Source: Alphaproteobacteria bacterium (GTDB lineage: Bacteria; Pseudomonadota; Alphaproteobacteria; UBA2966). Taken from it: a DNA stretch of 52,849 nt. The notes below the pieces were generated by a model. It saw nothing but the letters and a program-made list of their open reading frames with translations. It was not told the DNA's origin and made no database searches. This document shows, piece after piece, positions 43,576 to 52,791 of this stretch. The DNA lies in assembly GCA_030740435.1 (NCBI GenBank), contig JASLXG010000074.1, positions 1-52,849 on the forward strand, given 5' to 3'. Position 1 is the first letter of the stretch. Each line of letters begins with the position of its first letter. The position numbers and the translations under genes are program-made.

Positions 43576-44478
43576 ATGGACGCCTGGATCGCCATCACCA
43601 TTGCCGCCGCCTTTTTCCAGAATCTGCGCATGGCGGTGCAGAAACACCTGACGGCGCGTCTCAGTACCGCCGGCGCCACCTCCGTGCGCTTCTACTATGC
43701 CTTTCCCCTGGCCGCTCTCTACGCCCTGGCGGTGGCCAACTTGACGGGCCAGGCGCTGCCCCCGGCCAATACCTCGTTCGTGCTCTACGCCATGGTTGGC
43801 GGCGGCGCCCAGATCGTCGCCACGGCGCTCCTGGTGTCGCTCTTTTCGCTGCGCAACTTCGCCGTCGGCACGACCTTTTCCAAGACCGAGACGGTGCAGG
43901 CGGCGGTCTTCGGCATCGTCATTTTGTCCGACCCGTTGAGCGCCTGGGCGCTGGCTGGAATCCTGGTCAGCCTGGCCGGCGTGATGGCCATCTCGATGGC
44001 CCGTGGCAAGGCCGGCCTGGGCGGCCTTGCCCGGGGCTTGAGCGGGCGGCCGGCGCTCTTGGGCATGGCCTCTGGGGCGGCTTTCGCGGTTTCCGTGGTC
44101 TCCTACCGGGCGGCGGCTTTGTCGTTGGAAAGCGGCGGCGTGGCGCTGCGGGCCGGACTGACCCTGGCCGTGGTGACGGTGATGCAAACCATCGCCATGA
44201 CGGTCTACTTGCGCTGGCGCGAGCCCGGCCAGATCAGCCTCGTCTTCCGCTCCTGGCGGGTCTCGGTCTGGGCCGGCATCTTCGGCACCGCCGCCTCGGC
44301 GTGTTGGTTCACCGCCTTCACGCTGCAGAACGCGGCCTACGTTCGGGCCGTGGGCCAGGTCGAGCTGGTCTTCACTTTCGCCATTTCGTATTTCTTCTTC
44401 CGCGAACGCGCCACACCGGTCGAGATCGCCGGAATCCTGCTCGTCGTGGCCGGCATCCTGGTGCTGCTGCAGGGCTAG
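43576..44478 (+). CDS. EamA/DMT family transporter
   Basis: A 300-residue protein with about ten membrane segments and two EamA repeats; the second ends in the usual FFFRERATPVEIAGILLVVAGI. The charged AVQKHLTARLS loop after the first segment is typical. It would export or import a small metabolite across the inner membrane. It is 50 bp after the small hypothetical gene on the same strand and may share the promoter at 42853. Its 3' end overlaps the convergent methyltransferase gene by four bases. Confidence 0.85.
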   Translation: MDAWIAITIAAAFFQNLRMAVQKHLTARLSTAGATSVRFYYAFPLAALYALAVANLTGQALPPANTSFVLYAMVGGGAQIVATALLVSLFSLRNFAVGTTFSKTETVQAAVFGIVILSDPLSAWALAGILVSLAGVMAISMARGKAGLGGLARGLSGRPALLGMASGAAFAVSVVSYRAAALSLESGGVALRAGLTLAVVTVMQTIAMTVYLRWREPGQISLVFRSWRVSVWAGIFGTAASACWFTAFTLQNAAYVRAVGQVELVFTFAISYFFFRERATPVEIAGILLVVAGILVLLQG

Positions 44479-45245
44479 GCAGTAGCCGTGAAGCGACCGC
44501 CGCCGAGGCGGCCTTCGGTGATGCGACCGACGAAGAACTCGTAAGCCGTGATGTAGGTCTCGTGGCGCTGTTGGCCGAAGCTGGCCACGGTGCCAGCTTC
44601 CATGCCGCGGAACATTTCCAGACGCTGGATGAGCAGATCGTGCCACCAGGCCGAGAGGTCCTCGTGGATGATGGCCTGGAAGCCGGCGGCAGCTATCAGA
44701 TCGCGGTACTCCTCGGGCTCGTGGATGGCCTGGGCCATGATGCCGCTTTGCAGCCGCTGGCGGTCGGCCGGCGAGAGGCCGGGGCCGGCCAGCCAGTCCG
44801 TGAAGCAGAGCCGGCCGCCCGGCCTGAGCACGCGGCGCAACTCAGTGAACAGCGCCGGCTTGTCGGCGATGTGGAGAAAGGCTTCTTGCGAGAGCGCCGC
44901 ATCGAAGCTCTGCCCGGCAAACGGCATGTTCGTGGCATCGCCCTCGGCGAACCTGCACCGAGCGTCCAGCCCAACCAGGTGCGTCAGTTTTTCCGCCCCG
45001 GCGACGCGGCCGGCGTTGAGGTCGAGGCCCTGCACCTTGACGCCAAAGCTGGCGGCCAGAAAGCGGGCCGGCCCGCCGAGGCCGGCGCAGACGTCGAGCA
45101 CTTGGTGCCCGGGCGCGAGCTCGAGCCGGGCTGCGATGGTGCGCACGGCATCGAGGTGGCCGTAGTGGTCCTGATCAAAGGGGTAGAGGTCGGCGGGCTG
45201 CAGCGCCGCCAGGTCCTTGCCCTCGCGTTCCAGTCCGGCCAGCAC
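44475..45245 (-). CDS. Class I SAM-dependent methyltransferase
   Basis: From the GTG at 45245 the protein has 256 residues with SAM motif DVCAGLGGPAR at 51-61, DLNAGRV and EGDATNMPF, then QEAFLHIADK and RVLRPGGRLCFTDW as in type 11 methyltransferases. The codons just upstream (to about 45278) read FYDEHPINEGS, which resembles the usual N-terminus of this group, but no ATG, GTG or TTG is in frame there; an ATT at 45284 may be the real start. The substrate is unknown. It is divergent from the selenoprotein methyltransferase. Confidence 0.8.
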   Translation of the reverse strand: MLAGLEREGKDLAALQPADLYPFDQDHYGHLDAVRTIAARLELAPGHQVLDVCAGLGGPARFLAASFGVKVQGLDLNAGRVAGAEKLTHLVGLDARCRFAEGDATNMPFAGQSFDAALSQEAFLHIADKPALFTELRRVLRPGGRLCFTDWLAGPGLSPADRQRLQSGIMAQAIHEPEEYRDLIAAAGFQAIIHEDLSAWWHDLLIQRLEMFRGMEAGTVASFGQQRHETYITAYEFFVGRITEGRLGGGRFTATA

Positions 45246-45373: not shown

Positions 45374-46165
45374 ATGACCGACGAGTTGATCGCGGACGAC
45401 GTCATCGTCGACGCGGAGGCGCTGCGCGAACAGGTCCGGGAAAAATACCGCGAGGTGGCGCTGGAGCCCGAGCGCGAATTTCATTTCCATACCGGACGGC
45501 CGCTGGCCAAGCGGCTGGGCTACGACCAGGCGCTGGTCGATGCCTTGCCCGATGCGGCCGTCGAATCCTTTGCCGGCGTCGCCAGCCCGTTTGCCTTGCA
45601 AGCGCTGCAAGCGGGCGAACGCGTGGTCGACGTGGGCTCGGGCGCCGGCTTCGACAGTTTCATCGCGGCCGCCCAGGTCGGTGCCGAAGGCCAGGTCGTG
45701 GGCGTCGACATGACCGAGGAAATGCTGCTCAAATCCCGCGCCACGGCGCAGCAAATGAATTGCCGCCAGGTCGAATTCCGCGACGGCCTGGCCGAAGAAC
45801 TGCCTATCGAGGATGGCTGGGCCGACGCCGTCGTCTCGAACGGCGTGATCAACCTCTGCGCCGACAAGCAGCGGGTGTTCAGCGAAATCGCGCGCGTGCT
45901 CAAGCCGGGCGGCCGGCTGCAGTTCGCCGACATCGCCAACGGCCAGCCGGTACCGGCCTCGGCGGTGCGCGACATCGACTTATGGACGGCCTGAATTGCC
46001 GGTGGCCTGCCGTGTGCAGGCTGGCAGAAGATGCTCGAAGATTCAGGCTTCACGGACGTCGCCATCGGCCCACCCAACGACACCTTCGGTGGCGCCGGCG
46101 GTGAAGCCAAGGCGCGGCAGTTCGAGGTTTTTGGCTACTCGTTCCTGGGCCGCAAACCGCGGTAG
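45374..46165 (+). CDS. ArsM-like methyltransferase, probable selenoprotein (TGA at codon 207)
   Basis: Reading the TGA at 45992-45994 as an amino acid, the protein has 263 residues and ends at TAG 46163-46165. The SAM motif DVGSGAG is at 86-92, SNGVINL at 155-161 and RVLKPGG at 174-180. The sequence around the TGA is DIDLWTA-U-IAGGLP, where Cys relatives read WTGCIAGGL; beyond it KMLEDSGFTDV and ARQFEVFGYSFLGRKPR are fully conserved-looking in the same frame. A SECIS-like hairpin follows immediately. A cysteine at this place is one of the metal(loid)-binding residues in ArsM enzymes. Methylation of arsenic, selenium or a related thiol-bound substrate is likely but unproven. The other ArsM cysteine (SNCV) is glycine here. 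Confidence 0.78.
45996..46027 (+). promoter_or_regulatory. SECIS-like stem-loop after the in-frame TGA
   Basis: The RNA can form an upper stem GCCUGC (46005-46010) with GCAGGC (46016-46021), closed by the five-base loop CGUGU, and a lower stem UUGCC (45996-46000) with GGCAG (46023-46027). The loop starts 16 bases after the UGA and has G as second base. These agree with the general rules for bacterial SECIS elements (loop 16-37 nt from UGA, G among the first two loop bases). Confidence 0.65.
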
Positions 46166-50258: not shown

Positions 50259-50373
50259 GGTCCGCTAGAGGGAGACTTCACAGGGCTCCAAAGCATATCC
50301 TGTGTGGAATTCCGTCGTCCGGGGCGCGCCGCTTGGAGCGCTTTCGCGTTGCCGACTTCAGGGAGAACATTTG

Positions 50374-50799
50374 ATGCCGACGTTTGTGCACACCGACAAG
50401 TGTGACGGCTGCAAGGGCGGTGAGGTCACCGCCTGCATGCACATCTGCCCCAACGACCTGATGGTGCTCGATACCGGGCGCATGAAGGCCTACAACCAAG
50501 AACCCGAGCAGTGCTGGGAATGCCAGTGCTGCGTCAAGGCCTGCCCCCAGCAGGCCATCGAGGTGCGGGCCTACGCCGACGTCGTGCCCATGGGCGGTGC
50601 CGTCATCCCGCTGCGCACCGACGACGCCATCATGTGGACCATCAAGTTCCGCGACGGTGAGCTCAAGCGCTTCAAGTTCCCCATCCGCACCACTCCGGTG
50701 GGCTCCATCGAGCCCTACGCCGGCAAGCCCGAGGCGGACGACCTGGAGAACCAGAACCTGTTCACCGAAGCCGGCCGCAATCTACCCACGATCGCCTGA
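50374..50799 (+). CDS. aprB: Adenylylsulfate reductase, beta subunit
   Basis: The 141-residue protein carries two [4Fe-4S] clusters: Cys10, 13, 21, 25 and Cys47, 50, 53, 57, the spacing known for AprB. The C-terminal tail that wraps around AprA is present (IKFRDGELKRFKFPIRTT). AprB passes electrons to the FAD of AprA, encoded 81 bp downstream. AGGGAG precedes the ATG by eight bases. In the cytoplasm AprBA interconverts sulfite plus AMP with APS; direction depends on the rest of the pathway. Confidence 0.96.
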   Translation: MPTFVHTDKCDGCKGGEVTACMHICPNDLMVLDTGRMKAYNQEPEQCWECQCCVKACPQQAIEVRAYADVVPMGGAVIPLRTDDAIMWTIKFRDGELKRFKFPIRTTPVGSIEPYAGKPEADDLENQNLFTEAGRNLPTIA

Positions 50800-50880: not shown

Positions 50881-52791
50881 ATGATCGAGGGCACCTTCGG
50901 TAACCCGGAAATCATCGAGATCGAGACCGATATCCTCATCATCGGCGGCGGCATGGCGGCCTGCGGCGCGGCCTACGAGGCCAAGCGCTGGGCTGGTGAC
51001 GACGTCCGCATCACGCTGGTCGACAAGGCCGCCATGGACCGCTCGGGCGCCGTGGCCCAGGGCCTTTCCGCCATCAACACCTATCTCGGCGAGAACTCGC
51101 CAGACGATTATTGCCGCATGGTCTCGGCCGATCTCATGGGGCTGACGCGCGACGACTTGGTTTACGATGTTGGCCGCCACGTCGACGACTCGGTTCATCT
51201 CTTCGAGGAATGGGGCCTGCCCATCTGGAAGGACAAGGAGACCGAGGGCGTGGCGCTCGGCGATGGCGGCAAACCGGTACGCTCGGGGCGCTGGCAGATC
51301 ATGATCAACGGCGAGAGTTACAAACCCATCGTCGCCGAGGCGGCCAAGAAGGCCGTCGGCATCGAAAACGTCTACGAGCGCGTCTTCATCGTCAAGCTGC
51401 TGCTCGACGAAAACGAAGATAACCGCATCGCCGGCGCCGTCGGCTTTTCGGTGCGCGAGCACAAGCTCTATGTCTTCCGCGCCCAGGCCGTGCTCAATGT
51501 CTGCGGCGGCGCCGTCAACGTCTTCAAGCCGCGCTCCATCGGCGAGGGCATGGGCCGTACCTGGTATCCGGTGTGGAACGCCGGCTCGACCTACGCCATG
51601 GCGGCCGAGGTCGGCGCCGAGATGACGATGATGGAAAACCGTTTCGTGCCGGCCCGCTTCAAGGACGGCTACGGCCCGGTGGGCGCCTGGTTCCTGCTCT
51701 TCAAGTCGCAGGCCACAAACGGCTACGGCGAGAACTACATGCAGAAGAACGCCCACATGCTGGAGGATTTCGCGCCTTACGACAAAGCCGCCGTGGTGCC
51801 GACATGCTTGCGCAACCACGCCATGCTGCACGAGATGAAGGAGGGCCGCGGACCCATTTTGATGGATACGCCGACGGCCATGGCCAACCTCTCCGAGACC
51901 ATGACACCGAAGGAGGTCAAGCACCTGGAGGCAGAGGCCTGGGAGGATTTCCTCGACATGTGCATCGGCCAGGCCGGGGTCTGGGCCGGCATGAACATCC
52001 GGCCCGAGGAATCACCCTCCGAGCTGATGCCGACCGAACCCTACCTGCTGGGTTCGCACTCGGGTTGCTGCGGCATCTGGGTCTCGGGACCCGAAGACAT
52101 CGAGGCACCGGCCGAATGGAGCTGGGGCCACAACCGCATGACCACGGTCACCGGCCTCTTCACCGCCGGTGACGGCGTCGGCGCCTCGGGTCACAAATTC
52201 TCCTCGGGCTCGTTCACCGAAGGCCGCATCGCCGGCAAGGCCATGGTCCGCTTCGCCGGCCAGCAAAGCGCCTTCAGCCCGGCGCTGAAGGATGACATCG
52301 CGACCATCACCGAGGAAATCTACAAACCGGTCCGCACCTACCTCGAGCACAAGGACAAGACCACGTCGGAAGACATCAACCCGCACTACATCTCGCCCAA
52401 GATGTTCCAGATGCGGCTGCAAAAAAATATGGACGAATACGTCGCCGGCGTCGGGCCCTACTACCAGACCAACGGCAAGCTGCTGGAGATCGGCCTGCAT
52501 CACCTGGAGCTGCTCAAGGAAGACAGCCAGCACCTCAGGGCCAATGACTTGCACGAGCTGCTCAGGGCCTGGGAAAACTACCACCGCCTGCGCACCGCCG
52601 AGGCCCATTTGCGCCACATCCTCTTCCGCGAGGAATCGCGCTACCCGGGTTTCTACTACCGCGCCGACTTCCCCGGACTGGACGAGGACAACTGGAAGTG
52701 CTTCGTCAACTCGCGCATGGATCCGGAAAGCGGCGAATGGGCCATGAAAAAGGTGCCGCACAAGGACCTAGTGGAAAAACACTACGGCTGA
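50881..52791 (+). CDS. aprA: Adenylylsulfate reductase, alpha subunit
   Basis: The 636-residue flavoprotein has the FAD motif IIGGGMAACGAAYEA at 20-34, the substrate-side VDKAAMDRSGAVAQGLSAIN and NRFVPARFKDGYGPVGAW blocks, and GEGMGRTWYP. It is of normal AprA length and complete. With AprB it reduces APS or, in sulfur oxidisers, oxidises sulfite to APS. A membrane partner (aprM or qmoABC), which would tell the direction, is not in the window; a terminator follows, so it is not co-transcribed downstream. GGAGG lies eight bases before the ATG. Confidence 0.97.
   Translation: MIEGTFGNPEIIEIETDILIIGGGMAACGAAYEAKRWAGDDVRITLVDKAAMDRSGAVAQGLSAINTYLGENSPDDYCRMVSADLMGLTRDDLVYDVGRHVDDSVHLFEEWGLPIWKDKETEGVALGDGGKPVRSGRWQIMINGESYKPIVAEAAKKAVGIENVYERVFIVKLLLDENEDNRIAGAVGFSVREHKLYVFRAQAVLNVCGGAVNVFKPRSIGEGMGRTWYPVWNAGSTYAMAAEVGAEMTMMENRFVPARFKDGYGPVGAWFLLFKSQATNGYGENYMQKNAHMLEDFAPYDKAAVVPTCLRNHAMLHEMKEGRGPILMDTPTAMANLSETMTPKEVKHLEAEAWEDFLDMCIGQAGVWAGMNIRPEESPSELMPTEPYLLGSHSGCCGIWVSGPEDIEAPAEWSWGHNRMTTVTGLFTAGDGVGASGHKFSSGSFTEGRIAGKAMVRFAGQQSAFSPALKDDIATITEEIYKPVRTYLEHKDKTTSEDINPHYISPKMFQMRLQKNMDEYVAGVGPYYQTNGKLLEIGLHHLELLKEDSQHLRANDLHELLRAWENYHRLRTAEAHLRHILFREESRYPGFYYRADFPGLDEDNWKCFVNSRMDPESGEWAMKKVPHKDLVEKHYG

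Follow-up and report, generated by a model that had tools for sequence, protein, structure and literature searches.

Both methylation steps of human AS3MT require Cys156 and Cys206, the first step also requires Cys61, and the number of cysteine ligands falls from three for arsenite to two for methylarsenite and one for dimethylarsenite (PMC3877260). Selenocysteine (Sec)-containing proteins of this kind have been catalogued: a table in PMC13188914, citing Fomenko 2007, lists a Sec-containing arsenite methyltransferase with the motif UxxG, an entry in PMC5029168 counts 41 such genes in 39 organisms, and the protein is also named in PMC2398784. In addition, a Sec-containing ArsM-like domain is part of three fusion families in NCBIfam, NF041537 (ArsM/AhpD), NF041536 (ArsM/DUF2284) and NF047649 (MTase/UXPK-star), and fusion selenoproteins of this type have been catalogued with the motif UxxG. 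The Sec methyltransferase is thus already known as a kind and is not new, and an earlier sequence-only reading of the present locus, which proposed a probable new selenoprotein, claimed too much in this respect.

The locus lies in a window (the whole stretch of DNA that was analysed, 52,849 nucleotides) which is one contig of a fragmented alphaproteobacterial draft genome of 236 contigs, and this genome was itself searched family by family. Standard annotation, including the plain list of open reading frames used here, ends the gene at a UGA; thus, in Alphaproteobacteria, Actinomycetota and Chloroflexota the enzyme can readily be overlooked or taken for a truncated protein. As had been proposed from the sequence, the frame that begins with the ATG at 45374 remains open past the TGA at 45992-45994 for 56 further codons, up to the TAG at 46163-46165 (Table 1). 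The read-through product matched Pfam Methyltransf_31 (6e-29), and its AlphaFold2 model, built from 44 homologs, had a mean pLDDT of 92.7. The best structural match of the model was C. merolae ArsM 4fr0 (Z 26.1, rmsd 2.4, 216 residues), and the nearest solved structures are arsenite methyltransferases (4fr0, 4fs8 and 6cx6, CmArsM; 5evj, CrArsM). The product can be assigned with practical certainty to the class I SAM methyltransferases of the ArsM fold. Elsewhere in the window, a divergent neighbor (44475-45245, minus strand) encodes a small SAM methyltransferase (Methyltransf_11), which also adjoins the ortholog in locus L040. Two further genes, at 50302-50799 and 50881-52791, resemble by eye AprB and AprA, the subunits of adenylylsulfate reductase, and suggest dissimilatory sulfur metabolism.

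Table 1. Coordinates in the window of the predicted selenoprotein gene, its compared residues and the putative SECIS-like element.
Feature	Position	Strand	Remarks
Predicted Sec-containing class I SAM methyltransferase gene	45374..46165	+	263 aa when read through; stop TAG
His-Phe-His (HFH), codons 37-39	45482..45490	+	H37 and H39 in 50/52 Sec forms; a Cys pair lies nearby in canonical ArsM-like proteins
Val, codon 69	45578..45580	+	Replaces the third As-binding Cys (Cys72 of C. merolae ArsM)
SAM-binding motif VVDVGSGAGFD, codons 84-94	45623..45655	+	
Gly, codon 157	45842..45844	+	Replaces As-binding Cys174; Gly in 52/52 Sec forms, Cys in 20/20 canonical forms
Cys, codon 162 (INLC)	45857..45859	+	In 49/52 Sec forms and 0/20 canonical forms
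UGA, codon 207, predicted to be read as Sec	45992..45994	+	Aligns with As-binding Cys224 of C. merolae ArsM
C-terminal part after the predicted Sec, 56 codons	45995..46162	+	Contains the last two core strands
SECIS-like hairpin	45997..46026	+	Lower stem 45997-46000/46023-46026; upper stem 46005-46010/46016-46021; loop CGUGU 46011-46015

One alternative is that the TGA is a real stop, the gene being a pseudogene, a product of sequencing error or the source of a functional protein of 206 residues, and TGA does serve as the normal terminator of other genes in the window. However, the codon-207 column is occupied exclusively by TGA or Cys in approximately 80 homologs, with TGA in approximately 60 relatives and TGC or TGT in all of the remaining ones. 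The TGA forms come from Alpha-, Gamma- and 'Beta'-proteobacteria, Myxococcota, SAR324, Actinomycetota, Chloroflexota, Dormibacterota and a planctomycete, and the related motif WTGCIAGGL, in which the sequence-only reading saw the Cys replaced by the TGA, is indeed present in a Cys form (L083). Because the TGA is common to approximately 60 genes of other genomes, a sequencing error is excluded. Comparison with a sister species revealed purifying selection on the region after the TGA (pS 0.30, pN 0.024), and codons 208-222 showed no change at all, synonymous or nonsynonymous. Among 47 TGA forms, codons 207-221 constitute the peak of synonymous conservation of the entire gene, with ten-codon windows as much as 0.25 above expectation, while the gene median is 0.04. 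In the AlphaFold2 model, residues 227-231 and 253-260, which form the two final core strands, both follow Sec207; thus, a stop there would break the fold, in agreement with the earlier expectation that truncation would cost the protein its C-terminal region. Together with the covarying hairpin and the selB linkage described below, these observations make a real stop very improbable.

A hairpin immediately follows the TGA, with an optional extra G-U pair (46004-46022). The sequence-only reading had described a two-part stem with the loop CGUGU starting 16 nt after the TGA; the hairpin is present and covaries, but the distance of 16 nt leads to the loop and not to the stem. Folding energy is weak as a sole test of a SECIS, and it was therefore replaced by covariation and synonymous conservation. 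In the upper helix, 93.8% of cells were paired across 35 distinct sequences, and two-sided changes were found in 4 of the 6 pairs. The covariation score was 0.33, compared with 0.14 for shuffled alignments (none of 500 reached the observed value) and no more than 0.08 when the hairpin was slid. Against a null of synonymous codons, folding energy showed a modest excess in the TGA forms (mean z -0.86) vs. +0.12 in the Cys forms, which fold at the hairpin site no better than their codon choice predicts; the hairpin signal is thus present in the TGA forms and absent in the Cys forms. Folding was weak in the actinobacterial PRAG variants. An Rfam scan of the window at the gathering threshold matched no family, and the hairpin therefore fits no family catalogued at that threshold. 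A SECIS-type hairpin, as would be looked for in a selenoprotein gene, is predicted directly 3' of the UGA.

The machinery for Sec insertion is complete in the same genome: selA and selB were found on contig C145, and tRNA-Sec (selC, anticodon TCA) and selD on contig C164. Formate dehydrogenase (TIGR01553) was sought as a second Sec protein of this genome and was absent; a PrdB/GrdB-like gene (L157:1259-1960, genome G000, contig C164), with an in-frame TGA in VPIUPFC, was therefore used as the second selenoprotein, and it adjoins tRNA-Sec and selD. Among 385 genomes of the class, selB was found in 8/8 carriers of the methyltransferase and in 45/377 others (Fisher p=8e-8, kinship ignored). In a second count of 50 genomes with homologs, comprising 37 TGA carriers and 13 Cys carriers, selB scored above the cut-off in 32 of the former vs. 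3 of the latter, and in 0/6 close Cys carriers; among the five TGA carriers missing selB, two (G009 and G040) look like cases in which selB is split or cut between contigs. In some genomes, the methyltransferase is linked to sel genes (G247, L047, L053, L070/L140, L072, L100 and L151). The order is selA-selB-selC-MTase-selD-PrdB(Sec) in G247, with a single opposite-strand gene between selB and selC, selB-selC-MTase-selD-PrdB in L047 and selA-selB-selC-MTase in L053, while in L140 the methyltransferase adjoins selB-selA-selD. Joint transfer, instead of a functional tie, may account for this closeness.

A decoding of the UGA as Cys or Trp, through a suppressor tRNA or an alternative code, would fit the Cys at the aligned position of Sec-free relatives. 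The chance of this is negligible: the genome possesses the complete Sec machinery including tRNA-Sec(UCA), the hairpin signal is limited to the TGA forms and missing from the Cys forms, and the neighboring genes terminate at UGA, so the codon is not generally reassigned. We consider it almost certain, from comparative sequence evidence, that the UGA at 45992-45994 codes for selenocysteine, which SelB with tRNA-Sec(UCA) would insert under the guidance of the hairpin. The sequence-only reading had called the gene a probable selenoprotein and named four ways of checking this, namely the Sec machinery of the genome, the homolog column, covariance of the hairpin and a misread TGC or TGT; the column, the covariation and the sel genes bear the claim out, and the TGA shared with other genomes answers the last. 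The explanation as a whole, that the gene is a genuine selenoprotein of the ArsM fold with Sec207 at the acceptor site and a sulfur or selenium species as its likeliest acceptor, has in our estimate a probability of about 0.88.

To compare the active site with that of ArsM, 52 Sec forms and 20 canonical relatives were aligned. The proteins share the fold, the SAM motif and the WxxC/U-IAGGL segment, in which the predicted Sec aligns with the As ligand Cys224; this column holds Sec in 52/52 Sec forms and Cys in all 20 canonical ones. The expectation that the Sec would occupy the column of an As-binding cysteine is thereby supported. In contrast, the Cys72 column contains Cys in 20/20 canonical forms and in 0/52 Sec forms (Val in 44), the Cys174 position is Gly157 here, as the sequence-only reading had noticed for the second ArsM cysteine, and the N-terminal Cys pair of the canonical relatives gives way to HFH. 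Among the As(III) ligand positions Cys72, Cys174 and Cys224, only the last is kept, as Sec; Cys156 and Cys206 of human AS3MT correspond to residues 157 and 207 of the window protein. The protein scored 214.9 bits against NF008823 (ArsM), below the curated cut-off of 263, and eight other members of the subfamily or its vicinity scored 205.8-231.1 bits, all below this cut-off; no NCBIfam model scored above its cut-off for the window protein. The canonical Cys-type ArsM of the same genome (L017:974-2600, contig C4), which has an ArsR-type regulator and an AhpD-like protein on its two sides, reached 339 bits against the same model. Thus, the genome has a proper arsenic enzyme besides the Sec enzyme. 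The latter is very probably not a canonical three-cysteine arsenite methyltransferase, and the earlier doubt about arsenite as the substrate gains support from the lost As ligands and from the separate canonical ArsM. By analogy with ArsM, we infer that Sec207 occupies the metalloid-binding position, near the methyl group of SAM.

The window protein shares the motif UxxG (U-I-A-G) with the catalogued Sec arsenite methyltransferase; the entries concerned in PMC13188914 and PMC5029168 carry no alignment, and likeness to the subfamily with HFH, V69 and G157 is judged by motif only. The N-terminal methyltransferase part of NF041537, NF041536 and NF047649 aligns with it over approximately 218 residues at 220, 202 and 196 bits, less than half of each cut-off. 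Unlike these double selenoproteins, the window protein has no second domain and, at 263 aa, only one Sec. Compared with NCBIfam, PMC2398784 and the entries concerned in PMC13188914 and PMC5029168, the stand-alone HFH/V69/G157 subfamily looks uncatalogued.

Could the enzyme be an arsenic methyltransferase after all, perhaps for partly methylated arsenicals, with one selenolate instead of several thiolates? The closest solved structures are ArsM, the known Sec homologs are named arsenite methyltransferases, the Sec takes the place of an As ligand, partly methylated arsenicals use fewer cysteines (two for methylarsenite and one for dimethylarsenite; PMC3877260), and ArsR-type regulators adjoin some homologs. 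However, all 52 aligned Sec forms lack counterparts of Cys72 and Cys174, the human enzyme requires both Cys156 and Cys206 (PMC3877260), the genome already contains a canonical ArsM, whose locus has the order ArsR-ArsM-AhpD-like, inspection of the listed neighborhoods by eye revealed neither an arsenite exporter nor an arsenate reductase, and the adjoining ArsR regulators bear rhodanese domains. We regard an arsenical substrate as somewhat unlikely.

The neighborhoods, whose genes were identified by a codon-scored gene call and targeted searches, hint at sulfur or selenium. An ArsR-rhodanese regulator was found near the methyltransferase in 12 loci, mostly of Actinomycetota and Chloroflexota, and most of these add a metallo-beta-lactamase/rhodanese protein and an MFS transporter, while some add a DsrE or TusA-like domain. 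The cassette of ArsR-rhodanese, metallo-beta-lactamase-rhodanese and MFS genes recurs in L071, L044, L045, L077, L079, L101 and L086. Locus L071 belongs to Pseudonocardia asaccharolytica, a carrier in culture whose genome contains the methyltransferase gene twice. Genes of this sulfur cassette were found in none of the 19 flanks of canonical ArsM examined, mostly archaeal. In the window's own class, the methyltransferase has no constant neighbor, and the sulfur-related neighbors come mainly from other phyla. In a planctomycete (L097:2977-4527), a Sec ArsM-like methyltransferase is fused to the methanethiol S-methyltransferase MddA (360.9 bits, cut-off 270), the fusion's own TGA at codon 517 being treated as a stop; this homolog, a single distant case with 43% identity, encodes its Sec at the corresponding codon, is preceded by an ArsR-rhodanese gene and lacks the HFH motif. 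Within the class, MddA was present in 3/8 carriers and 25/377 others, a weak association (p 0.015, kinship ignored). MddA is a membrane enzyme that is unrelated to the window protein, and MddM1 and MddM2 are UbiG/UbiE-type proteins of 204-210 aa (PMC12904073); these descriptions set the latter two apart when they are considered as known relatives. None of MddA, MddH, MddM1 and MddM2 is described as a selenoprotein in PMC12904073, and they resemble the Sec methyltransferase only in the proposed chemistry and, in the case of MddA, through the L097 fusion. The rhodanese and DsrE neighbors and the MddA fusion favor a sulfur or selenium substrate, and an acceptor of this type is a reasonable prospect, somewhat short of an even chance.

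On the reading that we prefer, Sec207 would replace the catalytic As-binding Cys beside the SAM methyl group, the other As(III) ligands being lost (Val69 and Gly157), and its selenolate would bind or activate a soft, thiophilic acceptor, perhaps assisted by the HFH motif and Cys162. SAM would then methylate this acceptor, most likely reduced or sulfane sulfur (HS-, a thiol or a Sec-bound persulfide) or selenide, with a partly methylated arsenical as the main alternative.

The tree of the homologs requires no more than three Sec/Cys changes. An actinobacterial Cys clade, consisting of Glycomyces and an acidimicrobial genome without selB above the cut-off, is nested in the Sec clade; therefore, the simplest reading is a reversion from Sec to Cys. 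Position 199, which precedes residue 207 by eight and is Arg in the window protein, carries an additional Cys in 9/10 non-canonical Cys forms (L082, L083, L085, L095, L096, L149, L150, L152 and L153) vs. none of more than 60 Sec forms; because the nine represent at least two lineages, the p value of 1.5e-10 overstates their independence. This distribution suggests that one Sec may do the work of a Cys pair, and the extra Cys199 is possibly a compensation for the loss of Sec. Sec is a strong ligand of soft metals, and a C199/C207 pair would fit a dithiol metal site; moreover, related fusions of Sec methyltransferases are catalogued among prokaryotic selenoproteins. Methylation of a different soft element (Hg, Te or Sb) or of a larger organic thiol, rather than of inorganic sulfur or arsenic, could thus be envisaged, but genes for mercury or tellurium were not noticed beside the methyltransferase, and we consider it unlikely. 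Returning to sulfur and selenium, we put forward only tentatively, as rather less probable than not, a widespread family of Sec-dependent S (or Se) methyltransferases in which a lone selenolate carries or activates reduced sulfur and in which loss of Sec was survived through Cys and a second Cys eight residues upstream.

The enzyme would extend the use of Sec to the acceptor site of methyl transfer, beyond classical redox chemistry, and its Cys forms, in which at least two lineages bear a second Cys missing from the Sec forms, offer a natural experiment on the benefit of Sec. Should sulfide, a thiol or selenide prove to be the substrate, volatile methylated sulfur or selenium would also arise by a pathway that depends on selenium. 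In several Actinomycetota (L081, L082, L084, L085 and L142), a second ArsM-like methyltransferase lies just upstream, and genes that look like those of an ECF sigma factor and a zinc-finger anti-sigma factor are also present at these loci.
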